Below are positions 1,304-19,430 of a stretch of DNA of 36,324 nucleotides, in pieces. Source of the stretch: Candidatus Gastranaerophilales bacterium (GTDB lineage Bacteria > Cyanobacteriota > Vampirovibrionia > Gastranaerophilales > Gastranaerophilaceae). The notes beneath the pieces were generated by a model. The model was not told where the DNA came from. It did not search any database and saw only the letters and a program-made list of their open reading frames with translations. The position numbers and the translations under genes were made by a program. The DNA is taken from positions 1-36,324 of the forward strand of contig CALUQN010000025.1 in assembly GCA_944322945.1 (NCBI GenBank), read 5' to 3'. Each line of letters begins with the position of its first letter. The first letter of the stretch is position 1.

Positions 1304-3883
1304 ATGATGAAAAAATTACTTATATTTTTTGCACTCTTTACATTTTGTTCTACTGTATTTGCGGCTGATTTCAGTGTATTCAAGCTAGATAACGGTCAGA
1401 CTGTCGTTATTCAAGAAGTAAAAAATAACCCTATTGTTATTGTCGATACCTGGATTAAAACAGGTTCTATTGATGAAAATGATGAGAATAACGGTGTTGC
1501 ACACTTTTTGGAACACCTGTTTTTTAAGGGTACCAAAACCCACGGACCAGGCGAATTTGACAAAGCCATTGAAAATAAAGGCGGTATTACTAACGCCGCA
1601 ACAAGCAAAGATTTTACACATTATTACATAACTATTCCGTCAAAATATTACAATCTCGCTATGGAAATGCATGCTGATATGCTTCAAAATCCGCTCATTC
1701 CAGGAAACGAAATGGAAAAAGAACGTAAAGTCGTTCTTGAAGAAATCTCAAAAGACGCAAATTCTCCTGACAGATTAGTTTTTGACAACCTCGTTGATAT
1801 GATGTATCAGACTCACCCATATAAAAGAAAAGTTATAGGCAGGGCTGATGTTATTGAAACTATTACACGGGAAGGTGTTTTAGACTTTTTTAATAAAAAT
1901 TACTACCCCGGCAATATGGTCACTGTAGTTATAGGGGATGTTGATACCCAAACTGCACTCAATAAAATTAAAAAAGAATTCAACAGCGACATTAGAAAAG
2001 TTAAACGAAATACATACAAAAAAGAAGCTCAGCTCAAACAACAACTCAGAAAAATTGATTATACAAATACAAAGAGCGGATATATGCTGATAGGTTTCCG
2101 CAGTGTCGATATAAATAATAATGACTCTTATGCGCTTGACGTCTTGGCAACAATTCTGGGCGACGGACGCTCTTCAGTTTTTTATCAAAACATCAAGGAT
2201 AAAAAGCAGCTCGCTTACACAATTGCGGCAACAAATTCAGTCATGCGCGATGACGGAATTTTCTACATATCTGCAAATTTTGTGCCCGCACAGCTGGAAA
2301 AACTTGAAAAAACTATCTTTGAAGAAATAGCTCAGGTTCAAAAAAACGGCGTTACTCAAGAACAGGTTACCTTAGCTCAAAATATAATCGAACGTGATAC
2401 ATATTATTCAAGAGAATCAGTGTCCAACATTGCCTCTGAAATCGGCTACACCGTTGCGCTCACCGGTGATGTAAAATTCTATGATACATATCTTGAAAAT
2501 ATTAAAAAAGTTACCCCGCAAGATGTAAAACGCGTTGCTAACAAATACCTCGGTATAAACAAAAGTGCGGTATCTATTGTGCTGCCGGAAACAGAAAAAG
2601 AAGTAAAAATATCAAATAAAACTACTCAGCCGCTTACTGCGACCATTGTGAGTGAAAATAAAGGTACGCAGAAATATTCGCTTTCAAACGGTACTACCTT
2701 ATTGCTAAATCAAAATAAAAACAATGATATTGTGGCAATCTCAATTTACGCTAAAGGGGGCGAATTTTTAGAAAGTATTCCTGGCACAGCTAACCTCACA
2801 GCTACACTACTTTTGAAAGGTACCGAAAAATATACCGCGCTTGAACTTGCCCAGCTGCTTGATGACAACGGCATCAAAATATCTCCTGCAACTAAAGCTG
2901 ATGCTTTTATGATATCTGTGTTAACTACAAAGCCACAGATTGATAAAACATTAGAAATACTGGACGATATTATAAATAATTCTAAATTTGATGACTATGA
3001 ACTGGAAAAAGCACGCTCGGAAAAACTTAACGTTATTAAAAGAAATCGTGATATCCCGATTCAGTTAGCGTTGGAAGAATACAAAACATTGATTTTTGAG
3101 GGGTCGCCTTATTCAAATTCAACTAAAGTTCTTGAAAAATATCTACCGTCTATACAAAGAGATGATGTTGTTAAATTTGCTTCAACAATATTTAACCCTA
3201 AAAATCTTGTTATTTCTGTAAACGGTGACGTTGATAAAGATAAGATGACTGATGCAATATCAAAAATTTTCGGCAATAAACAGGGCGAAAATTTTGATTA
3301 CACAAAATATTCAATTCCGCGTATCAGTACACAAAAAACAACAACAAAAACTATCCCTGACTTGCAGACTGATTGGATTGTGTACGGCTGGCAGACATCC
3401 GGTGTAATCCCTGAAAAGGATTATGCTACTATGTCTGTTATTGATGCAATTTTAGGTTCAGGAATGAGTTCCAGACTGTTTAAAAATCTGCGTGACGCTC
3501 ACGGACTAGCTTATCAACTCGGTTCTGCCTACGGCGCAAACATTCTAAAAGGGGCTTTTGTTGTCTACATTGGCACTAATCCGGAAAACTTGGACGTAGC
3601 TCAGGAAAAACTCCTCGCTGAAATCAACAGGCTTAAATCTGAATATGTCAGCAGCAAAGAACTTAATGATGCTAAAGAAAAGCTCGCAGGAAACTATATA
3701 ATTGCTCTTGAAACTAACCTTGAAAAGGCTTCTAATGCTGCCTGGTTTGAAGCTTCCGGAAGAGGATACGATTTTGGTGATAAATATCTTGAACTAATAA
3801 ACAATGTTACAGAGGCAGATATCATTGAAGTCGCAAATAAATATTTTACGAATAATTATGTTAGAGCGATTGTAAGAAATTAA
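1304..3883 (+). CDS. Secreted M16 (pitrilysin/insulinase) zinc metalloprotease, two-domain
   Basis: An 859-aa zinc endopeptidase of the M16 family, PqqL/YmxG-like, expected to cleave peptides in the periplasm. A signal peptide (about residues 1-21, ending FA-AD) is clear. The inverted zinc motif HFLEH is at residues 67-71, and the distal zinc ligand fits E147 in VVLEEI, 76 residues after the second His as in the family. The first M16 lobe and its C-terminal partner fill about residues 25-430. A second M16 pair (about 455-859) has lost the HxxEH motif: the aligned place reads LTATLLLKGT. It therefore acts as a structural half of the clamshell. Start: ATGs at 1304 and 1307 overlap; the GGGGG ribosome binding region suits 1307 slightly better. 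A terminator follows at 3898. Substrate is unknown. Confidence 0.93.
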   Translation: MMKKLLIFFALFTFCSTVFAADFSVFKLDNGQTVVIQEVKNNPIVIVDTWIKTGSIDENDENNGVAHFLEHLFFKGTKTHGPGEFDKAIENKGGITNAATSKDFTHYYITIPSKYYNLAMEMHADMLQNPLIPGNEMEKERKVVLEEISKDANSPDRLVFDNLVDMMYQTHPYKRKVIGRADVIETITREGVLDFFNKNYYPGNMVTVVIGDVDTQTALNKIKKEFNSDIRKVKRNTYKKEAQLKQQLRKIDYTNTKSGYMLIGFRSVDINNNDSYALDVLATILGDGRSSVFYQNIKDKKQLAYTIAATNSVMRDDGIFYISANFVPAQLEKLEKTIFEEIAQVQKNGVTQEQVTLAQNIIERDTYYSRESVSNIASEIGYTVALTGDVKFYDTYLENIKKVTPQDVKRVANKYLGINKSAVSIVLPETEKEVKISNKTTQPLTATIVSENKGTQKYSLSNGTTLLLNQNKNNDIVAISIYAKGGEFLESIPGTANLTATLLLKGTEKYTALELAQLLDDNGIKISPATKADAFMISVLTTKPQIDKTLEILDDIINNSKFDDYELEKARSEKLNVIKRNRDIPIQLALEEYKTLIFEGSPYSNSTKVLEKYLPSIQRDDVVKFASTIFNPKNLVISVNGDVDKDKMTDAISKIFGNKQGENFDYTKYSIPRISTQKTTTKTIPDLQTDWIVYGWQTSGVIPEKDYATMSVIDAILGSGMSSRLFKNLRDAHGLAYQLGSAYGANILKGAFVVYIGTNPENLDVAQEKLLAEINRLKSEYVSSKELNDAKEKLAGNYIIALETNLEKASNAAWFEASGRGYDFGDKYLELINNVTEADIIEVANKYFTNNYVRAIVRN

Positions 3884-4136: not shown

Positions 4137-7100
4137 TTAGTTCCAATTGTTTGACAGGTTTGACTTCATAGAATTAGCCCTGCGTAAGTTCAGATACAAG
4201 ATTTTGTTAGCCGTAGCCTTGCTCATATTCACGAACCTTACGCCCGCCATATTTTCCTGAAGCCGCATTACTTCAACCTGGACATCAATTTCCATATCCT
4301 CATACAACAAGGATACATCCATCTTGTCACCGACTTTAAGATTGAGTTCGTTGCCAATCAATGCGCCAGTCTTTGAAATATCATAAACCGGAACGGTAGA
4401 TTTGATATTTTGACCTGCTGTCGGGAATCTCATTGAAATACGTTTTGTTGCTTTATATGTGGCTTTATCAATATCTTTAAAGCCAGGAGTTGTTGTATAC
4501 TGCTGCAACTTATCATCTTTGTATGTCAGTCTGAAGAAGCTGTTTTCATTTCTGTAGAGGTTAGTTATTTCATACGGATTATATTGAACAGCCGGAGCTT
4601 TTGTTTCCAGGGTTATCAAATCTCCCATGTGAAGTCCGAAAGAACCTGTCTTTTGTGTATAGAGCTGCAATGTTGCATGGTCAAGATTTCTTCTGAAATC
4701 ATTATCCACAATTGTCAGCCATCTGTAGTCCTCACTTTGCGGTCTGTGAACACCACCTGAGCCGTCACGATTGCCGTTTCTGAATTCAGCATAATTGTTG
4801 ATAATTGCGTCACGTACGGTCAAATCCAAATCCTGGGTATCGACATAAGCATCATTTGCATACAATCTATTGATGTGCAGACCTCTGTTTGTATCTTGCT
4901 GTAAAGTATCATTTGAATTTAATGACAGAGTGACATCCTTAGCACGATAATCAGTTCCGGTTTGAAGAGTAAATTCATTCTGGAATACCTCAATAGTTGT
5001 CTTCAATTCCTGTTCAATGTAACTTCTTGTAGAACTGTCACCGTTATTTGCATCAGCTACAGCGTCTTTTGAAACACCAGTTATATCAAACGCCAGTTTT
5101 TCGCCGTCGCCGAAAGTATTAAATCCTGACGCATAAGAAGTCTTGCCGGTCAGCGGGTCAACATAAACCGTATCAGCTTTCGGGTCAAAGCCATCGTTAT
5201 GATGTTCTGTGTATACCGGTGATTCCATTGCGTCATAAGAATGAGCGTAGATATTATCCGCCATCAGGGTTACATCAGGTTTTTGGAAGATATTATCTCC
5301 AACTACTTCATATTCGCCTTTACCGTTGTTTGCACCGCGGACATAAGCGTTGTAAATTCTGAGTGTTGAATTTGCATTATCTCCGCCGAGAGCATCCAGA
5401 ACTTCAATAGCAACTGTCTGCGGGACAACTTCATTATTTTCACCGCCAAGTTTTATCTTGTCATGTGGATAGAGCAGATCGTTGAAATCTTCACTTCCGC
5501 CTGAAATTAAGCCCAGATTATATATCGTCAGATTTTTTGACTTATTTAAAATATGAAGATGATCATTTGATGTAATTTCCGCAATCTCAGCATCTGAACC
5601 GAGAGCAAAATCAATGGAGCCGCGTTTTGAAATCAAATGAGCGATATTAGTCTTGTCTCCAAAAGATGAACCGTCAAGGTAGATATCATTTTCAGCTTCA
5701 AAGCCTACTTTTGCATCACTATCTAAATCAGTTCTTTGTTTGTAGGTCAAGGCTTTACCATCTTCACCAATTTCGTTGCTTGAAATTACTGATATATTTT
5801 TACCTTCAAGGTTAGCCTGTGTGCTGTCTGATGAAGCATTTTTGATTGAGTAACCTCTGAAGTACGGTTCATTTTTTGGATCCGGATTTTCTTCGTCAGG
5901 CTGTTTCCAGTCAGCTGCTGTCAGGACAATATCACCGTCTGTTTTAATTTTATCAATATTCAAGTCTGACTTTTTAGCTCTCAGATTAACCAGACCGGAA
6001 TCTTCCACGCCAGCTTTTGCTGACGCCTCAATATCAACTTTTCCTTTTACATTAACATTGATTGATTTTGTATAATCTCTTGTATCAGCATCAATACTGT
6101 AAGCCGGTTTATCTGATACAGCCCGTTGACCGACACTTCCGCCGGTTAAGTTGATATCCAAATCTTTACCGGCTGCAACAAGAGTTTTGTCAACTCCGGC
6201 ATTCAGAATATCACCGTTTGTTTGATTAATTTTTACGTTGCCGTTAACTGCATTAATATTATTGTCAGTTGACGCATCAGCGATTGTTATATTGGCATCG
6301 CTGTTTGTAATATTAATATCCTGTTTATCGGTTTTTGTAATACCTGCGATAGTAATACCGCCAGCGGCTGTGTTTTTAATATTCAAATTGCCGTTGTTAT
6401 TTATAACAGAACCCGTTGAAGCGACTGTTATGCCGCCGTTTGTATTTGTAATATCAGTTTGTCCGAGGACATTCAGGACATCTCCTTGAACAAGTATTCC
6501 GTCGCCGCTGTTCAAGATTTCAAGTTTACCGTTATTATTTTTGAGCAGACCTGTGTCTGAAACAGTCAGCATGCCGGCGGTGTTTTCAACTTTTGAATCG
6601 CCTTTTTTATTATTCACGGTGCCTGCAATAGTTGTGCCGGCTGTGCCATTATTTGTAACGGTCATTTTACCGTTATTATTCAGAACCTTACCGCCTTTTT
6701 CAACAGTTATACCGCCGTTGGTATTTACAATATCAAGTGCACCGTTTTGGTTGTCAATCTTACCGGTTGAAGCGACCTGCACACCGTCAGCACCGTTGTT
6801 TTTAACGGTTGTATTACCCTGTTTGTTTTCAACTGTACCAGATACTTTCAAGCCTGCTTTCTCATTAGTAACTTCAGTTTTACCAATGTTGTTTGATACA
6901 GTACCGGTAATTTCAGTACCGCCTGAACCTTGAGAGGTTATTTTTGTGTTACCTTTACCGAAGTTTTTGAGCAAACCTGCAAGTGTCAGTTTGCCGCTTT
7001 CTTCTGTATTTGAAATTGTTACATTACCAGAGGCTGCCGGATTCTTTTCATTATTTTTTACTGCGGATGTGTCAGTCAATAGAATATCGCCTTTTGTATT

Positions 7101-10100
7101 TGTTATTTCAATATTGCCTTTTTCGTTTGCTATAGTGCCGCTGATTTCAGTTCCGTCTACGCCGTTATTTTTAACGGCAAGCTTTCCTTCATTTGCAATC
7201 TTACCGGCAATTTTAACTCCGGCATTACCGTCGTTTTCAATCGTTGAATTGCCGACAGCATCAATTGTTGCAACAATTTTACCGTCTTTATCATGTTTTT
7301 CATTTACAAGAACGCCGTTCTCCGATTTCAGGGTTAATTTTCCTGTTTCATCACCGGTTTGTTTATTTTTGCCGTGTGTGATTATACCGATGATATTGAG
7401 TTTACCGTTTGAAGTAACTTCGGTTGAAGCAAGTTTATGTCCCTGATTGACGGACGTTCCGGCAAATGTTCCTTTGTTATCAAATCCGCCGTTCATTCTG
7501 TCATTACCAAGGGTATTTATTACAAGTTCATTGTTTGTATCATTTTTGATAGTTACATTTGCGTAACCGTCAGTGTAGCGAACTTCACCTTTGCCGGAAA
7601 CATTACCTGTGAAGTTGACATTACCGCCTTCTTGTTTTGTATGGAATACAAGAAGTTTATTGTTTGCTTTGTCATAAATGACTTTAATATTATTGTCTTT
7701 ATTTAGATATGCAGTGTTAACCATATTCTTTTCTCCGGTATTCGGATCTACAATAAGGTTTTCATCTGTCAGCATATCATCTGTTATAGTAACATTTCTG
7801 TCACCGTAACCGGCTTGAACATATCCGTCGACTTTGATATTGTCAGCATTTACGGTAACATCTTTACCTGCAATAAATCTGTCGACTGTATTTATGTTCA
7901 AATCAGTGCCTTTTGCATCGTATGCAACATTGCCCTGTACTGCAACAACATCTTTCACAGCGGTGTTTATTGCTCCATTAAAGTTTATATCACCACTTTC
8001 GTTCCATACGTTTAGTTTAGCTCCGCTGAAATTAATCATTCCGTTGAAGGTTAAATCAGACGGGGTTGAATTTTTGAACTGATCTAACGGATTGTTATGG
8101 TCAAAGTAATTTTTGATATTAATACCAGGATCATAAGTCTGACCGTCGCCGCTCACAACAAGAACATTGTCATTTATCGGGATACCTGTATTTGCCAGAT
8201 AACTGTAATTGTTCTTTTCTATAATAAGTCCGACTTCATCAATATTATCAAAATTGATATTACCGAAGATTAAATCATATTTGCCGGAATAATTGTTTAC
8301 ATCAAATCCGGGTTCAAAGATTTTGAAATGACCGCTTCCTGTAATTTTATTCAGAGCAGTTTCGCCCTTGCTCCTGTCAATTGTTGTATCAGATTCAAGC
8401 CCGACAATCTCAATTTTAGATTTTGGCGCATTTATATCGTCAAATTTGATATAAGATTTGTCAACTGTAATATCTTCAAAAGTCAATCCGCTCAAGTATT
8501 CTTTTTGCGAAGTTAAGGCTTTTATATTTCCCTCAATGGTATTTTGTGTATCTTTAGTATTCTCTATTAATGTTTCAAGTGAATTTATCTGTGATTCATA
8601 ATTTGCAATAGAGGCATTTATATTATTTTTTGCAGCTTGTGCACTTGCAGAATCACCGATAAGTTTTTGGGTACCGTTATCATCATAATATGCGATTCCT
8701 GCATTTTCATCTGCGACTGTTATTTTGCCTTGTATTTCATTGTATGCGTTAAGAAGTGTTGTCTGCTGTTCCTCTGTCAAATTCAACGTGTCTGACGCAA
8801 TATACTTTTCAAAAGATAAAGCTTCACCATTTTCAGGTATTTCCTGATTCATAAACCCATTCCAGAATGTGTCAAAATCCTCAATAATACCGTCTGCGGC
8901 AGTCTTAACATTATCTTTTAGAGCATTCTGGACAGATTCCATTGAAATAGTCTCATAATCACCTGTATTCAAAGCCTCAAGCATTTGTTTAAGTTCAGCA
9001 ATCGAAGCTTTATATTCAGCAATTTTTTCATTGCTATATTCATTATCCTCTTCTATTGCAGAAAGTCTTTCTTGAAGTTCTGCAAGTTCTTCTGCTATAG
9101 ATTCAATAGCTTTCTGATTATCTTTTTCTTGTTCTTCTGCTGTGATTACACCGCCTTCGACGACTTCATATTTATTTTCAAAGCCTTCATCTTCTACAAT
9201 ATTGCCGTCTTTATCAATAAGCATATTGTATTTTGAGCCGGCGCCGGCACTGATTTCACCGTCCAGTTTTAGATTATTATCTATTTTTGTAGCAATATTC
9301 TGGCTCTTACCTGATGTAGTAATCGGAATACCAAACAACAAATAACTTGTTTTTTCGTATTCTACATTTGATGAAAGCTTTGTTCTGCCGTTGCCGTAGC
9401 GGATTGTAACATCCTTGTCTGAGGTTATTGCAGCATCTTTATTCACTGTCAAATTATTTGTAGTATTAAATTCAAGTTTTCCGTCAACATCACCGGTTGC
9501 AACACCTGCATCAACATCTAAAAAGGCATTTTGGGTTAAATTGTTCGTTGAATTTTGCATAAAGTTAATCTGAACTACATCATTGCCTAAAAGCTGTCCG
9601 TTGTTATTAACGTTATTATTTACATTCAATGTAAGGTAAGCATTAGCACCCGGGTCAACACCCCCAAACTGATCGGCGTCAATGCTTACGTCTGATACGA
9701 GCGTGTTATTAGAATCTAATGCGATATCCAGATCTCTTGCAAGAAGTGATGAGCCGCTTCCGATATCCAGATTATTGTTATTTGTTACAGTTAACCTTGA
9801 GGTTGCAACGTTTTTGGCTATAAACCCGCCGGCAGCAGAACCTATGTACTGCTTCAATGTACTGTCTGAAGTAACGTCAACATTCATCTTGTTAGCAGCT
9901 CTGAATTTAGAATCGTTAAGTTGAATCTTACTTGTTTGGCTAACATCGTTAGTAATATTTGTACTGTCTGATACTGAAAAACCGGCAAGTTTAACTTCAT
10001 ACTTGATATCTTTATCATCAATTGTACCAAGTTTTGCATTGGTTTTCATAGACATGTCGTAAGCTTCTATATCAGTGCCGTTTTGTGAAACAATATCAGC

Positions 10101-13100
10101 AGTTGATGTTATGTTATTTTTAACATTACCACCATACACAAGAACCGCTCCGGAAGCTTGAAGATTTCTCTTCATCGCAACACGGTTTTCACTATTTACA
10201 TCAAAATTAACATTTCCTGATGATTTGATTTTGGCTCCGTCAATGTTGATTTTGTTAGTTGTGTTTAGTGTATTCGATGTATCTGATTTTGAGATTGCAA
10301 CCAAGGTAACAGCTTTATCGCTTAATACGGTTTCTGTTTTGTTAACAGCATTTGATTTTACATTCATACTGTTTTCAAAATTTTCGTTTGTTGCATCTGC
10401 TGTGACATTGATAACTGAATCACCGTTAGCTGCGGTTGTAAGCTGATAAGTACCTACACTGACCAAACCGCCGACTTTAGATTCCGCTGTATTGAATGAA
10501 TCTCGTGAAACCTCAGATGTTACTGTCATATTATCCATAGCAAGCTTGCCGCCGATATTAATAGTGGTATCTGTATCTATCAATGCTTCACTCGTATTTA
10601 TTTCAACACCAACCAGGCTTATTTCTGCATTAACCATCTGTGTATTGACGTTAGCATTATCTTGTAATGCAACTTTAACAGCATTTGTTATTTCATTATT
10701 GCCGCCGATTGTTATTGTATTTGAACCACCTACTTTGGATTGCAACTTCAATGTTGAAATATTAATTGCGCCAAGACTTGCAGATGATGAACCTGATGTA
10801 GCAGTACGATTAACTTTTGAAATCACATTCAGATTATTTGATTTAAGACTTCCTGCATTAACAGTTGCATTTGTTTGAGCGTTAACTTCTGCATTTAGTC
10901 TAGTTACGCCGATACCTGCCAAACCTGCTTGTGCTTTTTTAGCAAGAACTTCAGCCCTGATTTCGCCGGCTTCATCTGTATTTGTCTTAACACCTGCGGC
11001 GACTTTAGTATTGACTGTATTTTCTATTGTTAAACCGGAATTATTAATACCTGAGTTAAATTGTGCATTAACAATAGCCCCCTGTGAGGTGACTGTTGCT
11101 GAGGCAAGTGACAGACCACCCATATTTACGGTTGTTTTGGCACTCACACCGCCTGTTGATGCAATTACGTTCATATTATTGGAATTGATTGTTCCGGTTG
11201 CATTTACAATTGCATTTGTAATAGCACTTGATTCAGCTTTATTAACAACAACCTGTCCTGAAATAGCAGAAGCTCTAAGAGATGCAAGTTCTGAACTTAA
11301 AGCGCTTGTATTGTCAGCTTTTACATCTAGGTTTCCGGTTGCATCAATATCTACTGCCCCTCTAATTGCAGCTTCTACCGTATTTTTAGATTCTGCAAGC
11401 GCAACGGTCGCATCAATGCTTACACCGGAAACATTTGCACCAACAGAACTTACATTTGTTGTATCTTTTGAAATTGCATTCACCGCAATATTTTGACCGC
11501 TTATTGTACCATTATTTATTTCTGATTTTGTAGTAGAGGTATTTGTAAAGTATGCAACGTTTCCGCCTACTGTAACACTACCAAGAGATGCAGCATAAGC
11601 ATTTGTGTCTGCTATAACCTCATTATTTGCAGTCACTGAAATATTATTACCCGATACATTACCGCCTAAACTTGCGGATGTATTGTATTTCATATTAGTT
11701 ACAAGCACATTTGCAGAAAATGCTCCTGCAGGCCCGATGGCAGCTGTTGCATTGTGTTTATCTAAATTGAGTGTATTAGACGCATCAACAGTTACGTCAC
11801 CCGTTGACTGAATATTGGCATTCACATTAGCTTGAACACCGCCTTTTGATGCATCTGATACAGTCACATCTGCACGATTAAGTGCAACATCGGTAATATT
11901 ACCATTATCGCTGGTTGTTAAATACTCATTTGTGTTGGCATCATCAAATTTGCCGCCGATAGATGTCACAGAAACAGCGCCTGCAACACCATACAAACCG
12001 CCTGCGGCTGATGCTGTAAGGATATTAATATCCATATCTGAAACGGCATCAACATCTACGGAAGATGCTATGATTACACCTGTTGTAGATGCAATTTCAG
12101 CTCTCACTGCATTATTAATTATATTAACGTTTGCAGCACCGGCTCCGCCACCGCCGACTCCTACAGCGACGATACCGACATTCATATCCAGATTAATTTT
12201 ATCCTGCGCATTTACAGTGAGTATTCCTGTTGTAATATCTTTAACACTGTTATCAACATAAGCACGGACTTCTGATTCTATCACGTTAACAATGACACCA
12301 AGACCAACTGCCAATCCGCCGATTGTTGCTGACAAATTATTGCCGCTAAATTCATTATTACTTGTTGAATTTACAGTCAATGCACCCGAATTAATTTCTG
12401 AATCTTTAATTTGTGCAACACTTGTATTCTTAGCCGAATTGGCAATAGCAGAACCGTTTACTGCTGTTGCAGAACCTGCACCGGCAGCCAGCACATCAAA
12501 AGTTTTAAATTCATTTGAAGCTTCTACTTTTGTTTCTCCACTGGATTTAATTATTGAGTTTTCAATAGAAGCTGTATTAGTTGTCGTATTTTCGTTTGCA
12601 ATTACAAGCGCATTACCCGCAACACCTCCGGAAGCTGCAACTCCGGCAGCAAGAGTTGCAGCCTCTTTATCATTCTCGGCTTTTACAGTTACTGTTTCGG
12701 CGTTTTGGATATCAGAATCTTTAATTTTTGCGGAAATTGTATTCTGCATATAATTATTATTCACTGTTGCATTCGCAGCAGCAGTACCGGAGCCTGCGGC
12801 ACCCAGCATAATTCCGCCTAAATATCCGCCGTCTTTTGCAGTTACTTCGACTGAGCCGTTTTTAACTGTTGTATCCAGTATTGATGCTTCTGTTGTTCCT
12901 AAAATAGTATTAACAAGCGCATTTCCTGTTACAGAGGTGACACCGGAACCTGCAAGGTTAGCAAGCGCGTCATAAGTAACCGCGACGGTTTCTGCTGAAA
13001 CATTCAATTTATTTGTATTTTCAATTTCTACCTGTTCAACAACCGCTGCAACATCGTTTGTCACGGTATTTGCTACAGCTACACCTCCGACAGAAGCAGT

Positions 13101-16100
13101 TCCGGAGCCGGTTACAGCAAGAATATTTACAATCGGAGTATATTTACCAATACTAATTCCTCCGCTAAAATCAGAATTATTGCCAACGAGAACCTCATAG
13201 AAATTGTCATTGTATTTCCATTTGTTGAAATCATTTTTTGCGATTACATTGATATCACTTGAGCCGTTAGAAAGGTTAGAGTTTACAACATAAGCTTTCA
13301 CCGCTGCATCAACAACATTAATAATGCCTGCACCGGCAACACCAGCACCGCCAGCTGCACCAACCATCATCATGGTTGCACCGAATGAAGATTTTGAATC
13401 CGCATTAACATTAATATCTTTTCCTGCTGTGATTGAAGTTTTAGCACCGTCAATTGTGCCGACTTTTGCTTCTGTAGTGTTAGAAAAAGCGTTTACATAA
13501 GCAATTGCGCCGACAGAAGCCATACCGGCACCGCTTACTGCAACATTTACACTCTCAACATCAGTTTTTTCAGCGGCATCGACATTCACAGCACCTGCGG
13601 ATTTTATGGTAACACCGTCTTCTACGGTTGCAAGTGTTTTATTTACAACAGTATTAACATTAGCTGAACCGTTAACCGCAACATTGCCGGCACCGCCGCC
13701 AACTACCATCAGAGTTCTGACAGTTTCATTATTTTGTGCTTTTACGTTAACATCTCCGGATGTGGTTTTGATATTAGCACCTTTTGCAATTTTTGCTTCG
13801 GTTGTGCCGGTTACCACATTTACAAAAGCAGAGCCGCCGACAGCCGCTGTACCCGCGCCCGTAATACTACCGACAATCGCGTTGATTACAACACTATCCG
13901 TTGCCTGAACATCTACTGAACCGGCATTTATTACAGCATTACCAACTGAAGCCAGTACATTGTTATTAACGACTTTTGTAATTATAGAACCGCTTACGCC
14001 TGCCGTACCGCCGCCTGCCAGATCAAATGTCATCTGCCAGTTTTTGAGGGATTCATAATCCTCAAGGGCTATACCGCCATTCACAACCTTAGTTATAATA
14101 TCATCAAGATTGATAGATACAATGTCTCTACCGCCGGAATAGTTGTTTGCCGCCGCATTGACATTCACTTTACCGCTTGAAGTTATATTTGCACCGTCTG
14201 CAACTGATGCTGAAACATTTTTATTCAAAACATCTACAATAATAGAACCGCCGACACCTGCTTTTGCTCCGCCTGTGATTACCCCGCCACGGCTCTTTAA
14301 GTCTGTAGTATCAGATGCAATAACATCAACTCCGGTTGAATTTGTCACAGTGCCGCCAACAGATGCCATTGTGTTGTTAACAATAACATTTGCACCAATA
14401 TTTGCGGCAGCCGCCAGAGTACCTGTTGATACGGAAACAGCTGCAGGAATAATGTCGATATTTTCATAAGATTGAGCAGCAGCACTTACTTTGCCGTCTG
14501 TTTCAATATTAGAATTTACGTTTGAAGTTGTTTCATTTGTATAAACATTTGTAATAATATTACCGCCTACTGCATTGCCGTTACCCAGTGCCAATCCTGC
14601 AACTGCCGTGACACCCTCGACTGTATTATTATAATCAGATGCTGCGGCAACATTTCCTGTTGATTTAATTGAACCGCCTGTAATATATGATTGAATATTA
14701 CTATTCAAAACATTTACAATAGCATTTGCCAGAACTTGGGTAGTTTGCCCCGTAGTAAGCCCGAAATTCACTGCAAGAAATCTTAAAAGTTCGTCAGAGT
14801 CTGCCGTAACAGATACAGAGGTTGAATTCTGTATTTTAGAATTTTGGATACCCGCAATAATTTCGTTATTAATAACATTCACAACAGTACCGATACCTAC
14901 ACCTGCACCGTTAGCAGTAGAAATAGAGGCTGAACCGGCAACATTTGCGGCATTAATATTTGAGTAAGCAAGAGTATCCACAGCACCGGAAGAATTTATT
15001 ACAGCATTATTAATCGCTGCTGAAACAGCATTCCCAATGACGTTAACCCCTATAGCACCTACAAATGAGAATGATGAAGAACCGCCTGTAATTACACTGC
15101 CTGCAATTGAAAATGCAATTATATCATCAGTTACACCGCCTTTATCGTTAGCCTTAACATTTACATTTTTGACACCTTGAAGATTACCACCGGTAATTTC
15201 AGAAGTTGTTGATTTATCATATATATCAATATTACCTGCAATACCGGCACCAACATTGGTACTGCTGCTTCCTCCGCCTGCGTAAGCAACACCGCCGGCA
15301 CCTTTATAAGATTTTGAATAATTGTTTGCAACTACATTTACATCGGTATTATTCCCTGTCAGAGTAACATTTTTCATAGAAGATGTTACCGTATTGTCTA
15401 TTGTGTTTACGTTAAATGAACCGCCCACAGCAGTCTTTGTATTGCCGCTTTGACCGGATGCAGCACCTACTCCGAGTGCAACTGCAATATTTTCATTATT
15501 TTCATCAGCCTTAATATTCAACGCGCCGTTTTGATTTGCAAACGTAACATTTGAGCCGTTCATTTTAGCTATTGTTGAACCGCCTTTGGAATTAACATTA
15601 ACAGCGGCACCTGCACCGACATTACCTGATTTTGCGACACCTGTTGCTATATCAAGACCTTTTGTTTCCTGTGTTGCTTCTACATTCAAAGAATTTCCGA
15701 CAGTAATAGTCGCATTGCCTACAGAAGCTTCTACATTGGTATCATTAGAATTTACTGTTACAACACCTGCTGCTGCGGCAGAAAAATTATCGGCTGCGGT
15801 CTGACCGTTTGCAGTTTGAGTTAAATTACCTGTAGTTCCGGCAAGCGCCTGACCTTGAGAAGTTGTAGAATTATTGTCAGTCGTTCCGTCATCAGGTGTT
15901 TTATTTGTATCATTCAATGATGATTGAACATTTTCGTCTTGAAGAGAATCTGTAACCGAACTTCCTGAAGCATCAGCGACAGCTTTATCTGAAGAAGATG
16001 CCCCGCCTTTGATTTTATCTACAATCGGCTGTAATTTATCCATCCAGCCGCCAAAGTTCCCGAAGGTCTGATTGCCGGAAGATGTTCCGCCGTTATTTAC

Positions 16101-19100
16101 AGCTTGCTGTGTATCTTTTTCAACACTTACGCCGCCGGCAAAAGCACCTGCCAGACCGACATTCAAAGATTGATATTTTGAATCTGCTTTAATATCAGCA
16201 CTTTCAGCTGCAGTAACAGTAGCCCCGTTACCGATTTGAGCCTGTACATTTTTATCAATATCGTTCACCATAACAGTGGCACCGACTGCGGCTCCTGAAG
16301 ATGATGTCTGACCGCTGCCCTGTGAGGTTGAACCTTTTTGTTTTGATACCGCACCGCCGATATTTAAAACGGAAGTTTTATCAGTTATATTTAATTCATT
16401 ACCAAAAGCAACGGTATTATTAACAAGATCTGTTTTATCCGCAACAGGTCTAAATTTTCCTTCACCGGCTTTTACTTCAACTTTTTTAGCGGAAACTTTT
16501 GCATTTTCACCGATTGAAGAAGTTGTGTTTCCACTTATACCGTTAACAAGAACAGAACCGGACAAAGCAAATGTACCGGAGGTTGCGCCTGTTGATATTA
16601 CATTCAGATAATTTGCTTCATTAGCCGAGCTAATCACTATATTTCCGTTTTGAACATTAACGGCTGCGCCTTTACCAATAGATGCAACCGCATTATTAGT
16701 AAAATCATTAACAAGCACGGAACCGCCTAAACCTACTTTGTCACCGCTTGCCGCACCTTTAAATATAGCAGTCAGTTCGCCCACACCGTTAAAGTTCACC
16801 GCAGAATTTACGGCGTTAACAAGAACATCGCCCCCGTCAGCTGTAACTTTTGCATTTTCACCGATTTTTGCTGTCGTATTATTTGCTATTGTGTTGTACA
16901 CAACAGAACCGGAAACACCGACGGTCTCACCTTTACCGGATGCGGCAACCTGATTGTTAAAAAGGTTGTAATCAAATGTATTGTTATCACCGGACGCCAG
17001 TTCAAATTCAACATCGGACAAATCAAGCCCTGAATACTCATCCCCGTTAGATTCAAACATGCTGAAATCCCAGCTCCAATTGCCCGAAGACGAAGGCCCG
17101 AGTTTTAGGCTGACAACATCCTGACCGAGAATATTAAGCTGAATATCAGCAAGTGAAAGCGGAAGTTCCGTTGTTGAATTAACTTTTACGGAATTTGCAT
17201 TAACATTACCTGTGATACTTGCTTTTGTTGTATTATCCTGACTGTTCACAAGAACCGCGGCACCCGGAGCAAACCTTGCGCCGTCCGTAGATTCTGAGGT
17301 TACTTTATTGGTTGTGTAATCAATAGTATTAGCTTCAACTGCAACATCACCGCCGGCTTTAAATTCAGCACTGCCTATTGATGCCGTGGTATTAACTACA
17401 CTTTTATTGATATCTACAACACCCGTCAATTCAACTTTTGGAGTCGGAGATGATGTTGTCGGATTTTTGGCATCTGCTTTGTCAGAAGAAAATGCCGACA
17501 TAATACCCTGAATTTTACTTAAAATACCTTTTTCCTGTTCATCGTGCTCCTTATCATCTTTATTTTCCCCTTGATCACCGGGTTTATATTCACTTCCTGT
17601 AGCGGAAATTTTTACATCGCTCACATGCAATGATTGCGCTGTAACATTTGCATCACCTTTCAATTCAGTATTTGCATTCACAACAGCAGATGTATTTACT
17701 CTGTCATTTTTCAAAACAAGAGATACACCGGCAGTACTTCCTGCGGATTGTCCCTGTGAAGCCTGTTGATATTTTACAGTATTGTCTGACTTTATAGAAT
17801 TATTTGTTACATTGACCGCTGCCACATTCAAATTATCTGCCTTGATAGTTGACTTATTGTCAACCTGAACATTAGTATCAGCAGTTGACGTATGATTTAT
17901 AACCATTAATTCATAAGCATTTGCTTTTTGACCTTTGTTTTGAATTAAAGTCTGGTTATTGAGTCTGAGTGAAGATTTGTTCTCTGACATTGCAAGAGCT
18001 TTAAAATCTCCGTTTGTATTAATATTTGAATTTTCAACATTTATATTAGATTTTGTAGAGTTACCCAGCGCGTAAATCAACGCTTTACCGGTCGGAATTG
18101 TTAATGAAGACACAGAAGTCTCAGCGTTTGCATTGGTACCTAAAATAATATCCCCGTTTGCGGCAAGGTCTGCATTTTCAATATTGATTTCAGCCTCAGC
18201 TCTTGCGCCGACAAAATCATCATAAGGGGTATCCATATTAAAAAATCCGTCAAGATTTGTTGCGGCGTCCATTGTCGCTGCCTTTATATTACTAAATTGC
18301 GAGTCTACTTTATCAGCAGCTTCCGCAGTGATATCAATTTGACCGCCTGCGATTGTAGCGTTTTTAATATTTACAGACGCCTTAACCGGCTCATTTTTAT
18401 CAACTTTGTTAAGAATTGAACCTGTTGTTTCACGAGAAGCCTGCGCACGGATTACAACTTTGCCGTTTTGTAAATCCAATCCTGTCGGATTTTGGATATT
18501 ATTTGATACAAGGCTGTTAAAAACTTCATTGGCTCTGTCAGCTGTCAGAATTTTTTCCTGATACTGGTTACCAATACCGGCAATAATTCCTGCAGTATTT
18601 TTAGCGGTTGAATCCTCTCCTACCGTAATATTTTTACCGTAAATTTCAACACCGTCGCGTGCAATGATTTTACCGTTAATTGTTATATTACCCTGTGAAT
18701 CGGTTTTCAAATTAGACAAATCTTCTGTCGGGTTTGCCTTCATGCCGGAAGTAAAAGAATTATAAGTATCCTGTGACGGAGTAATCAAAGACAATGCACC
18801 CACGTTCAACACGCCTGAAGCTCCGATTACAATACCGCTTGGAGAAACAAAGATTGCATGACCGTTATTAAATGCGCCGGAATTATTAAGAATGTTCAAA
18901 ATACCGTTTATATTAACCTGATTGTTTACGAGTGCAACAAATTTATCTCTGCCAATAGAGTTTATAAGGTTTGCAATATCACCTTCAGTTAAATTAAACT
19001 GATTAAAATGACCGAAGTCAGTCGAACCATGGCTAAAGTTTGGATTGATATCCCAGATATTACCATTTTGAGTTATATCAGGCGCCATGCCGGCTGATTT

Positions 19101-19226
19101 ATCAGGTGTAATCACACTCTCTGCCAGCAGCGGCAAAACTAAACTCTGCTGGAACACAAAACTTACGCATAAAATGGCAACAAAGACTCGGCGCACAATA
19201 TCCGTAAACAATCTTTTTCTCTTCAT
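4137..19226 (-). CDS. Giant two-partner-secretion exoprotein (TpsA/filamentous haemagglutinin-like) with C-terminal PilZ-like domain, 5029 aa
   Basis: A probable giant surface adhesin exported by Sec and then the TpsB pore encoded divergently at 19431. The extended basic signal peptide (residues 1-35, ending LLA-ES) is typical of TPS cargo. The TPS/haemagglutination-activity domain follows, with VNNQVNINGIL (100-110) and FVSPSGIVIGASG (126-138) at the place of the NPNG-type motif. About residues 200-3300 are beta-helix repeats rich in Asn, Gly, Ala, Val and Thr with a 54-55 residue period in places. Acidic or Ser/Thr linkers interrupt them near residues 555-600 and 1055-1130. Coiled-coil inserts lie near 3363-3419 and 3529-3579, a 23-25 residue repeat array at about 3995-4330, a non-repeat region to 4925, then a PilZ-like domain. 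The frame is intact, so the gene is probably functional. It resembles LktA/FhaB-type adhesins. An AAAGGA ribosome binding site precedes the ATG. Confidence 0.93.
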   Translation of the reverse strand: MKRKRLFTDIVRRVFVAILCVSFVFQQSLVLPLLAESVITPDKSAGMAPDITQNGNIWDINPNFSHGSTDFGHFNQFNLTEGDIANLINSIGRDKFVALVNNQVNINGILNILNNSGAFNNGHAIFVSPSGIVIGASGVLNVGALSLITPSQDTYNSFTSGMKANPTEDLSNLKTDSQGNITINGKIIARDGVEIYGKNITVGEDSTAKNTAGIIAGIGNQYQEKILTADRANEVFNSLVSNNIQNPTGLDLQNGKVVIRAQASRETTGSILNKVDKNEPVKASVNIKNATIAGGQIDITAEAADKVDSQFSNIKAATMDAATNLDGFFNMDTPYDDFVGARAEAEINIENADLAANGDIILGTNANAETSVSSLTIPTGKALIYALGNSTKSNINVENSNINTNGDFKALAMSENKSSLRLNNQTLIQNKGQKANAYELMVINHTSTADTNVQVDNKSTIKADNLNVAAVNVTNNSIKSDNTVKYQQASQGQSAGSTAGVSLVLKNDRVNTSAVVNANTELKGDANVTAQSLHVSDVKISATGSEYKPGDQGENKDDKEHDEQEKGILSKIQGIMSAFSSDKADAKNPTTSSPTPKVELTGVVDINKSVVNTTASIGSAEFKAGGDVAVEANTIDYTTNKVTSESTDGARFAPGAAVLVNSQDNTTKASITGNVNANSVKVNSTTELPLSLADIQLNILGQDVVSLKLGPSSSGNWSWDFSMFESNGDEYSGLDLSDVEFELASGDNNTFDYNLFNNQVAASGKGETVGVSGSVVYNTIANNTTAKIGENAKVTADGGDVLVNAVNSAVNFNGVGELTAIFKGAASGDKVGLGGSVLVNDFTNNAVASIGKGAAVNVQNGNIVISSANEANYLNVISTGATSGTFALSGSVLVNGISGNTTSSIGENAKVSAKKVEVKAGEGKFRPVADKTDLVNNTVAFGNELNITDKTSVLNIGGAVSKQKGSTSQGSGQTSSSGAAVGATVMVNDIDKNVQAQIGNGATVTAAESADIKADSKYQSLNVGLAGAFAGGVSVEKDTQQAVNNGGTSSGNQTFGNFGGWMDKLQPIVDKIKGGASSSDKAVADASGSSVTDSLQDENVQSSLNDTNKTPDDGTTDNNSTTSQGQALAGTTGNLTQTANGQTAADNFSAAAAGVVTVNSNDTNVEASVGNATITVGNSLNVEATQETKGLDIATGVAKSGNVGAGAAVNVNSKGGSTIAKMNGSNVTFANQNGALNIKADENNENIAVALGVGAASGQSGNTKTAVGGSFNVNTIDNTVTSSMKNVTLTGNNTDVNVVANNYSKSYKGAGGVAYAGGGSSSTNVGAGIAGNIDIYDKSTTSEITGGNLQGVKNVNVKANDKGGVTDDIIAFSIAGSVITGGSSSFSFVGAIGVNVIGNAVSAAINNAVINSSGAVDTLAYSNINAANVAGSASISTANGAGVGIGTVVNVINNEIIAGIQNSKIQNSTSVSVTADSDELLRFLAVNFGLTTGQTTQVLANAIVNVLNSNIQSYITGGSIKSTGNVAAASDYNNTVEGVTAVAGLALGNGNAVGGNIITNVYTNETTSNVNSNIETDGKVSAAAQSYENIDIIPAAVSVSTGTLAAAANIGANVIVNNTMASVGGTVTNSTGVDVIASDTTDLKSRGGVITGGAKAGVGGSIIVDVLNKNVSASVADGANITSSGKVNVNAAANNYSGGRDIVSINLDDIITKVVNGGIALEDYESLKNWQMTFDLAGGGTAGVSGSIITKVVNNNVLASVGNAVINAGSVDVQATDSVVINAIVGSITGAGTAAVGGSAFVNVVTGTTEAKIAKGANIKTTSGDVNVKAQNNETVRTLMVVGGGAGNVAVNGSANVNTVVNKTLATVEDGVTIKSAGAVNVDAAEKTDVESVNVAVSGAGMASVGAIAYVNAFSNTTEAKVGTIDGAKTSITAGKDINVNADSKSSFGATMMMVGAAGGAGVAGAGIINVVDAAVKAYVVNSNLSNGSSDINVIAKNDFNKWKYNDNFYEVLVGNNSDFSGGISIGKYTPIVNILAVTGSGTASVGGVAVANTVTNDVAAVVEQVEIENTNKLNVSAETVAVTYDALANLAGSGVTSVTGNALVNTILGTTEASILDTTVKNGSVEVTAKDGGYLGGIMLGAAGSGTAAANATVNNNYMQNTISAKIKDSDIQNAETVTVKAENDKEAATLAAGVAASGGVAGNALVIANENTTTNTASIENSIIKSSGETKVEASNEFKTFDVLAAGAGSATAVNGSAIANSAKNTSVAQIKDSEINSGALTVNSTSNNEFSGNNLSATIGGLAVGLGVIVNVIESEVRAYVDNSVKDITTGILTVNAQDKINLDMNVGIVAVGVGGGGAGAANVNIINNAVRAEIASTTGVIIASSVDVDAVSDMDINILTASAAGGLYGVAGAVSVTSIGGKFDDANTNEYLTTSDNGNITDVALNRADVTVSDASKGGVQANVNANIQSTGDVTVDASNTLNLDKHNATAAIGPAGAFSANVLVTNMKYNTSASLGGNVSGNNISVTANNEVIADTNAYAASLGSVTVGGNVAYFTNTSTTKSEINNGTISGQNIAVNAISKDTTNVSSVGANVSGVSIDATVALAESKNTVEAAIRGAVDIDATGNLDVKADNTSALSSELASLRASAISGQVVVNKAESSAITNAIVNATGTINSNNMNVIASTGGVSAKTTVNMGGLSLASATVTSQGAIVNAQFNSGINNSGLTIENTVNTKVAAGVKTNTDEAGEIRAEVLAKKAQAGLAGIGVTRLNAEVNAQTNATVNAGSLKSNNLNVISKVNRTATSGSSSASLGAINISTLKLQSKVGGSNTITIGGNNEITNAVKVALQDNANVNTQMVNAEISLVGVEINTSEALIDTDTTINIGGKLAMDNMTVTSEVSRDSFNTAESKVGGLVSVGTYQLTTAANGDSVINVTADATNENFENSMNVKSNAVNKTETVLSDKAVTLVAISKSDTSNTLNTTNKINIDGAKIKSSGNVNFDVNSENRVAMKRNLQASGAVLVYGGNVKNNITSTADIVSQNGTDIEAYDMSMKTNAKLGTIDDKDIKYEVKLAGFSVSDSTNITNDVSQTSKIQLNDSKFRAANKMNVDVTSDSTLKQYIGSAAGGFIAKNVATSRLTVTNNNNLDIGSGSSLLARDLDIALDSNNTLVSDVSIDADQFGGVDPGANAYLTLNVNNNVNNNGQLLGNDVVQINFMQNSTNNLTQNAFLDVDAGVATGDVDGKLEFNTTNNLTVNKDAAITSDKDVTIRYGNGRTKLSSNVEYEKTSYLLFGIPITTSGKSQNIATKIDNNLKLDGEISAGAGSKYNMLIDKDGNIVEDEGFENKYEVVEGGVITAEEQEKDNQKAIESIAEELAELQERLSAIEEDNEYSNEKIAEYKASIAELKQMLEALNTGDYETISMESVQNALKDNVKTAADGIIEDFDTFWNGFMNQEIPENGEALSFEKYIASDTLNLTEEQQTTLLNAYNEIQGKITVADENAGIAYYDDNGTQKLIGDSASAQAAKNNINASIANYESQINSLETLIENTKDTQNTIEGNIKALTSQKEYLSGLTFEDITVDKSYIKFDDINAPKSKIEIVGLESDTTIDRSKGETALNKITGSGHFKIFEPGFDVNNYSGKYDLIFGNINFDNIDEVGLIIEKNNYSYLANTGIPINDNVLVVSGDGQTYDPGINIKNYFDHNNPLDQFKNSTPSDLTFNGMINFSGAKLNVWNESGDINFNGAINTAVKDVVAVQGNVAYDAKGTDLNINTVDRFIAGKDVTVNADNIKVDGYVQAGYGDRNVTITDDMLTDENLIVDPNTGEKNMVNTAYLNKDNNIKVIYDKANNKLLVFHTKQEGGNVNFTGNVSGKGEVRYTDGYANVTIKNDTNNELVINTLGNDRMNGGFDNKGTFAGTSVNQGHKLASTEVTSNGKLNIIGIITHGKNKQTGDETGKLTLKSENGVLVNEKHDKDGKIVATIDAVGNSTIENDGNAGVKIAGKIANEGKLAVKNNGVDGTEISGTIANEKGNIEITNTKGDILLTDTSAVKNNEKNPAASGNVTISNTEESGKLTLAGLLKNFGKGNTKITSQGSGGTEITGTVSNNIGKTEVTNEKAGLKVSGTVENKQGNTTVKNNGADGVQVASTGKIDNQNGALDIVNTNGGITVEKGGKVLNNNGKMTVTNNGTAGTTIAGTVNNKKGDSKVENTAGMLTVSDTGLLKNNNGKLEILNSGDGILVQGDVLNVLGQTDITNTNGGITVASTGSVINNNGNLNIKNTAAGGITIAGITKTDKQDINITNSDANITIADASTDNNINAVNGNVKINQTNGDILNAGVDKTLVAAGKDLDINLTGGSVGQRAVSDKPAYSIDADTRDYTKSINVNVKGKVDIEASAKAGVEDSGLVNLRAKKSDLNIDKIKTDGDIVLTAADWKQPDEENPDPKNEPYFRGYSIKNASSDSTQANLEGKNISVISSNEIGEDGKALTYKQRTDLDSDAKVGFEAENDIYLDGSSFGDKTNIAHLISKRGSIDFALGSDAEIAEITSNDHLHILNKSKNLTIYNLGLISGGSEDFNDLLYPHDKIKLGGENNEVVPQTVAIEVLDALGGDNANSTLRIYNAYVRGANNGKGEYEVVGDNIFQKPDVTLMADNIYAHSYDAMESPVYTEHHNDGFDPKADTVYVDPLTGKTSYASGFNTFGDGEKLAFDITGVSKDAVADANNGDSSTRSYIEQELKTTIEVFQNEFTLQTGTDYRAKDVTLSLNSNDTLQQDTNRGLHINRLYANDAYVDTQDLDLTVRDAIINNYAEFRNGNRDGSGGVHRPQSEDYRWLTIVDNDFRRNLDHATLQLYTQKTGSFGLHMGDLITLETKAPAVQYNPYEITNLYRNENSFFRLTYKDDKLQQYTTTPGFKDIDKATYKATKRISMRFPTAGQNIKSTVPVYDISKTGALIGNELNLKVGDKMDVSLLYEDMEIDVQVEVMRLQENMAGVRFVNMSKATANKILYLNLRRANSMKSNLSNNWN
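4176..4445 (-). other. PilZ-like domain at the C-terminus of the exoprotein
   Basis: Residues about 4928-5017 of the giant protein. R4929-I-S-M-R4933 fits RxxxR and D4949-I-S-K-T-G4954 fits [D/N]xSxxG, the two c-di-GMP contact motifs of PilZ. The downstream pattern also fits: alternating beta strands (GALIGNELNL, KMDVSLLY, IDVQVEVMRL), then AGVRFVNMS and a closing amphipathic helix (KATANKILYLNLRR). The call rests on motif reading, not a profile search. PilZ domains normally sit in the cytoplasm, so the location on a secreted protein is odd. Confidence 0.75.
6230..7240 (-). repeat. Array of 23-25-residue beta-solenoid repeats in the exoprotein
   Basis: The encoded stretch (about residues 3995-4330) repeats a pattern of the form 'G-x-x-x-V-x-N-x-x-G-x-x-T-I-A-G-T-V-N-N' every 23-25 residues, for example GKMTVTNNG followed by TIAGTVNNKKG. 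This corresponds to about 70-75 bp per unit. The period is shorter and more regular than the repeats in the N-terminal half, so this is a separate solenoid section. Confidence 0.7.
8490..9138 (-). other. Coiled-coil inserts within the exoprotein
   Basis: Two Glu/Lys/Leu-rich helical stretches interrupt the beta-rich protein. The first is about residues 3363-3419 (SIAEELAELQERLSAIEED and IAEYKASIAELKQMLEAL). The second is about residues 3529-3579 (YESQINSLETLIENT and onward). Between them lies a non-repetitive, helix-prone segment with WNGFMNQ. An antiparallel helical hairpin projecting from the solenoid is a plausible reading; composition differs sharply from the flanking repeats. Confidence 0.7.
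12880..16960 (-). repeat. Long beta-helix repeat region (about 55-residue units) of the exoprotein
   Basis: Units share the skeleton 'G-x-A-x-V-G-G-S-x-x-V-N-x-x-x-N-x-T-x-A-x-I', then a Gly-Asp-Val-x-V-x-A turn. Two consecutive units beginning AVGGSAFVNVV and AVNGSANVNTV measure 55 and 54 residues (about 165 bp). Sequence between units is diverged, so these are old protein repeats, not fresh DNA duplications. Limits are approximate. Confidence 0.65.
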
Positions 19227-19430
19227 AAATTTATATATCCTTTTCTTCCGGTTAATTTACACACGTAACCACATTACAGTATTGTATACATGAAAATACA
19301 AACATAATTTATTTTGTTTAAATGTTACAGATTTATTACAAAGATGTAACATATCTTTAAAATTTAATTAAAAAATATATATTTATAGTAATTTAAAAAA
19401 TAAGGTGAAAAAGATTATAAGTGAGTGGTA
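19227..19430. promoter_or_regulatory. Divergent control region of the tpsA/tpsB pair
   Basis: About 200 bp of very AT-rich DNA separate the two divergent start codons. On the minus side an AAAGGA ribosome binding site lies about 13 nt before the exoprotein ATG, and a TACAAT hexamer (plus 19281-19286) is a possible -10. On the plus side only weak signals are visible: AAGGTG near 19402 and TATAAG at 19416-19421. I see no strong operator. Confidence 0.4.

Follow-up and report, generated by a model that had tools for sequence, protein, structure and literature searches.

What is a PilZ domain doing at the far end of a protein that seems made to leave the cell? PilZ domains are textbook cytosolic receptors, and the question is raised by a contig of 36,324 nucleotides from a Candidatus Gastranaerophilales bacterium (CALUQN010000025.1 of assembly GCA_944322945.1), which we call the window. 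The subject is the gene of a two-partner secretion (TPS) exoprotein, or TpsA (positions 4137–19226, minus strand), an open frame of 5029 residues encoding a filamentous adhesin of the LktA type with a PilZ ending (4146–4442, minus strand). An earlier reading of the letters alone, referred to here as the sequence-only reading, had placed a PilZ-like domain at the very end of this protein, and the residues of its two motifs are exactly as given there: RISMR at residues 4929–4933 (nucleotides 4442–4428) and DISKTG at residues 4949–4954 (nucleotides 4382–4365).

The identity of the domain was approached by profile, by fold and by conservation. The PF07238 profile matches the last 141 residues with an E-value of 5.8e-9 and 36.7 bits, above the curated cut-off of 22.5, and also a longer piece of 421 residues (E = 4.3e-8). 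An AlphaFold2 model of the tail, made with 33 sequences, reached a predicted local distance difference test (pLDDT) score of about 90–96 over most of the core, and the top Foldseek and VIA matches of the model are PilZ domains, several of them in complex with cyclic di-GMP (c-di-GMP); against Alg44, MrkH and YcgR the model scores a Z of about 10–11. The analysis thus confirmed that the exoprotein ends in a true PilZ domain, with the fold as predicted by the model. Ahead of the domain lies a lead-in that is predicted to be disordered (4452–4562, minus strand; model residues 1–37, pLDDT below 50), the start of which, ENSF.RLTYKDDK, is kept in the alignment of the giant relatives. In a sister species (G001) the C-terminus is 93% identical and sits within an open frame of 5172 residues. 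An assembly fusion can be ruled out, as the same ending recurs in the sister species and in dozens of others, and a chance occurrence of the motifs is ruled out by the profile, the fold and the conservation.

The other end of the protein bears on how it would leave the cell. Residues 1–35 (MKRKRLFTDIVRRVFVAILCVSFVFQQSLVLPLLA; 19122–19226, minus strand) form a probable Sec signal peptide that aligns with those of relatives and whose cleavage site was placed by eye; signal peptides in this work were assigned by eye and by hydrophobicity. Residues 59–205 (18612–19052, minus strand) make up the N-terminal TPS/LktA adhesin domain. PF05860, Pfam's TPS model, was not reported for the exoprotein in the Pfam scan, so the N-terminus was typed instead by the NCBIfam model NF012204 of LktA-family filamentous adhesins, which it matches with E = 1.1e-38 (132.5 bits, cut-off 60); it is in this form that the haemagglutination domain of the sequence-only reading was borne out. 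A search of the PDB sequences with the N-terminal profile returned nothing useful. Divergent from the exoprotein gene is that of a TpsB transporter of 615 residues (19425–21272, plus strand; POTRA_2 1.6e-18, ShlB 8.2e-20). The exoprotein carries both a signal peptide and a TPS-type N-terminus and has the partner gene alongside; its secretion via TpsB is predicted. Convergent with the adhesin gene, at 1304–3883, the window also encodes a peptidase of the M16 family that seems to have a signal peptide and is a possible processing protease.

The ending is not peculiar to the window protein. Relatives were sought with the window tail and with a profile, A1; a PF07238 search of the genomes overlooked the window's own copy. 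With the 141-residue tail as query, 97 of the family's 191 genomes gave matches; with the profile, 102 of the order's 146 did, a few of these weak matches being ordinary cytosolic PilZ proteins (G191, G038). Across a phylum-wide sample of 292 genomes, just three weak matches lie outside the order. Nearly all of these sequences come from metagenome-assembled genomes (MAGs), and the genome counts are to be taken as samples. The relatives fall into two classes: class A comprises giant adhesins of about 4600–6400 residues, the window type, and class B adhesins of about 1000–3200 residues with the same TPS N-terminus. Among the fetched loci, 61 complete frames have the TPS N-terminus and the PilZ domain at the very end, with a median of 4 residues past the profile. 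The PilZ tail is an architecture that recurs across a whole order of bacteria, on short and giant adhesins alike.

It is worth adding a few observations on these loci. The named relatives are mostly Candidatus Gastranaerophilales or Melainabacteria MAGs. Two typical Gastranaerophilales adhesin loci, L205 (JAMPCZ010000007.1) and L183 (JAISCP010000137.1), stand on MAG contigs labelled Muribaculaceae and Heliobacteriaceae, respectively, labels that probably reflect misnaming or misbinning. The window genome holds four TPS N-termini and two exported-type PilZ tails, the second tail being on a contig that ends within a (DA)n repeat. In the tandem TPS adhesin clusters L043 (G002:C5) and L044 (G003:C14) the PilZ tail is on the last adhesin only. 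More generally, a few TPS adhesins that are clustered with PilZ-bearing ones have no PilZ domain. The matching cluster of the window genome is seemingly split over contigs C14 and C30 at the (DA)n repeat, a join that we infer.

If the domain is real and widespread, has it kept its ligand site? Conservation was measured on 77 non-redundant tails, less than 80% alike. The first and the second arginine of RxxxR are each present in 96% of these, the D/N of (D/N)xSxxG in 96%, and the serine and the last glycine in 100%, compared with 51% for the median column. The sequence-only reading had asked whether both motifs are conserved and always C-terminal; they are kept together in 73 of the 77, and the tail is always C-terminal. 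We take the ligand site to be under selection. The ratio of nonsynonymous to synonymous substitution rates (dN/dS) is about 0.04–0.06 in the computable tail pairs, two pairs giving no value because synonymous sites were saturated. Four distinct tails lack the arginines and are otherwise recognisable as the same domain (L053, L055, L096 (/L106) and L107); all belong to giant adhesins, from several genera. Since these tails keep the domain, the fold can probably do without the motif, and that nearly all tails have it is then best read as retained, if putative, ligand binding. RxxxR/(D/N)xSxxG is the c-di-GMP site of characterised PilZ domains (PMC10333796). The intact pocket suggests a small ligand, which would most simply be c-di-GMP or a related dinucleotide.

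The tails avoid cysteine in the manner of exported proteins. The non-redundant tails have 5 cysteines in 3394 residues; in the same genome family, the cytosolic YcgR-like PilZ proteins have 45 in 2181. This comparison is partly biased, since those proteins mainly represent a single orthologous family in which cysteines are conserved. The general comparison with window proteins is unaffected by this bias: the cytosolic ones have 16 cysteines per 1000 residues. The adhesin passengers have 0.46 per 1000. The window exoprotein has none at all over residues 61–5029, and the TpsB, TolC-like and M16 proteins encoded in the window have none in their mature parts.

A second mark of export comes from small relatives of the tail. 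Twelve of the fetched loci encode stand-alone PilZ proteins of 151–238 residues that start with a hydrophobic signal and have the motif intact (L202:4855-5322, L208:5981-6628, L209:6207-6662, L205:9325-9798 and L168:1095-1811, together with L084, L085, L091, L173, L195, L095 and L098). Several of their genes immediately follow a gene for a class-B adhesin. Two genomes from another family have the stand-alone PilZ gene next to a TpsB gene (ShlB 5.7e-18), and a search of these two genomes found no adhesin of the present type. In the tree, the exported PilZ group is split from cytosolic PilZ with a support of 100/100, although the branches are long and the deep joins unsure; the stand-alone proteins fall in two places within the exported group, some as a clade close to class B and the others grouping with the G019/G008 lineage. 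Beside some stand-alone PilZ genes, on the opposite strand, is a gene for a protein of some 600–690 residues with no Pfam match (L208:6684-8729, L202:5724-7808, L168:1808-3862, L173:1799-3712 and L195:10310-12223).

A third mark is the stretch directly before the domain. Most class-B proteins have there a low-complexity run of DA, DT, DS, EP, PG, PTE or GDD repeats, and over both classes the entropy before PilZ is below 3.0 bits in 71 of 111 tails, the passenger windows averaging 3.56. Different repeats at one and the same position suggest, by analogy, a physical spacer, and this would fit an adhesin whose PilZ end lies towards the cell; Gram-positive adhesins have stalks before their cell-wall anchors. 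Taken together, the cysteine avoidance, the signal-peptide homologues and the stalk point to a domain that would work outside the cytosol. One of the two suggestions of the sequence-only reading, that the fold may have been reused outside the cell, gains independent support from the same three observations.

We tentatively favour, at somewhat less than an even chance, a reading in which the tail is exported and serves, on the periplasmic side of TpsB, as a C-terminal anchor that binds a ligand; the compartment, the anchoring, the ligand and the release are all what we infer. Proteins secreted by type 5 systems come out of Sec in unfolded form, the N-terminus leading (PMC8151025). The adhesin would leave the cytosol by Sec and then pass TpsB, again with its N-terminus ahead, so that the PilZ domain, made and translocated last, could fold on the periplasmic side of TpsB. 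Once folded, its beta-barrel could not be drawn into the pore behind the unfolded chain and would anchor the adhesin to the cell, with the lead-in or the low-complexity stalk filling the pore and raising the beta-helix off the surface. Binding of a ligand in the RxxxR/DxSxxG pocket may then stabilise the anchor or release it. Several points weigh against this reading. The ligand is the weak point, as no source of c-di-GMP in the periplasm is known here; a scarcity of cysteine is also what one would expect if the tail were held in the cytosol for a time and exported afterwards; class A has no low-complexity stalk, only the disordered lead-in of about 37 residues; a few tails have lost the arginines and can still be recognised as the domain; and some stand-alone PilZ proteins have single cysteines (4 in 1991 residues).

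The matter of the ligand source leads to the explanation that survives next best. GGDEF proteins, which the sequence-only reading had thought worth looking for, have 7 matches in the window genome and are present in 191 of 191 genomes of the family, and a YcgR-like PilZ match, in some cases weak, occurs in 60 of the 60 genomes tested; cytosolic c-di-GMP signalling thus probably exists in these genomes. As GGDEF is found in all 191, the loss of the motif could not be compared with a loss of GGDEF. With c-di-GMP made in the cytosol, the PilZ domain might fold there before SecA arrives and, in its c-di-GMP-bound form, stall Sec export, leaving an adhesin that spans the envelope until a fall in c-di-GMP lets the tail unfold, export end and the adhesin go free. 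Such a cytosolic gate would explain both the ligand and the conserved pocket, and it would suit a cysteine-avoiding tail that is exported in the end. LapG (PF06035), the known release protease, was found in none of 40 family genomes, the window genome included, which leaves these genomes without the known system of c-di-GMP-driven release and rules out LapG-type control. It fits less well that PilZ proteins with signal peptides and intact motifs also occur on their own, where there is no adhesin to be held, and that tails without the arginines persist; we consider the gate unlikely. The remaining suggestion of the sequence-only reading, that the C-terminus stays in the cytosol or is exported last so that c-di-GMP holds or releases the adhesin, fares accordingly: a transient gate of this kind is still compatible with the results, and cytosolic retention found no positive evidence.

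The arginine-less tails speak for another proposal, that the PilZ domain is a structural plug only, a stable stop for TpsB in which the motif is kept for folding or for a protein contact. Four distinct tails in several genera stay PilZ-like without the arginines, just as a plug would allow. The fold, however, seems to need no motif, and yet all but four of the non-redundant tails keep it, which makes the plug improbable. Least likely of all, with only a slim chance, is an extracellular sensor, in which an adhesin-borne or secreted PilZ domain binds c-di-GMP, or something similar, released by gut bacteria nearby and tunes adhesion: PilZ proteins that bear the marks of export and have intact pockets do exist, and Campylobacter biofilms respond when c-di-GMP is supplied from outside the cells (PMC9608569), but one would look for a C-terminal tail next to the cell and not at the tip of the adhesin, and the reading presupposes enough free c-di-GMP in the gut.

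A broader proposal, doubtful as it stands, is that the order moved a cyclic-dinucleotide receptor out of the cytosol and made of it a ligand-controlled adhesin anchor along with small secreted partner proteins. If true, this would be second-messenger sensing, or sensing of a related dinucleotide, in the cell envelope, by a sensor built into the adhesin. What gives these considerations their interest is that the ligand residues are nearly invariant in a large family bearing the marks of exported proteins. Either c-di-GMP would meet the protein during its exit, as a one-protein alternative to LapD/LapG, or a dinucleotide-like ligand would act outside the cytosol. In both cases the tails may offer a handle on the possible gut attachment of the largely uncultured Gastranaerophilales.

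It remains to set the window protein beside known systems. It shares the N-terminal TPS domain with the LktA-family filamentous adhesins of NF012204, for which we found no description of a C-terminal PilZ domain. With YcgR, Alg44, MrkH and BcsA it shares the PilZ fold and the RxxxR/(D/N)xSxxG motif; those receptors are cytosolic, whereas the tails form a separate branch, are cysteine-poor and are fused to exported proteins or signal peptides. In the work of Noel et al. in 2012, the prodomain of FhaB, the C-terminal part of a giant TPS exoprotein, is reportedly kept back in the cell. The likeness lies in a C-terminal part being held back; to our knowledge, FhaB has no PilZ domain. The open-access full texts searched gave no precedent for an extracytoplasmic or secreted PilZ domain, a fusion of PilZ with a TPS protein or adhesin, or a Gastranaerophilales adhesin, and the statement of the sequence-only reading that no TPS exoprotein with such an ending had been described holds for these papers. 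CdrA is a TPS cargo that is cut near its C-terminus, and the release of CdrA and LapA is under the control of c-di-GMP through LapD/LapG (PMC11898600, PMC12805831). The proposed logic of adhesin release under c-di-GMP would be the same here; the difference is that LapG is missing from the 40 genomes and the putative receptor is within the adhesin itself. A close analogy is with HMW1 and HxuA, TPS exoproteins whose C-terminal anchor, according to a passage in PMC5422565 that cites Buscher et al. 2006, is presumed to stay periplasmic and so keep each protein locked to its TpsB. The window protein may be held in a similar way by a C-terminus on the periplasmic side. In HMW1 and HxuA, however, the anchor is a short disulfide loop, a type ruled out here by the lack of a C-terminal cysteine pair, while the window protein has a cysteine-free PilZ fold with a conserved pocket. 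A TPS C-terminal anchor and a PilZ domain are each known in their own right; their combination, and the export of a PilZ domain, appear to be new.
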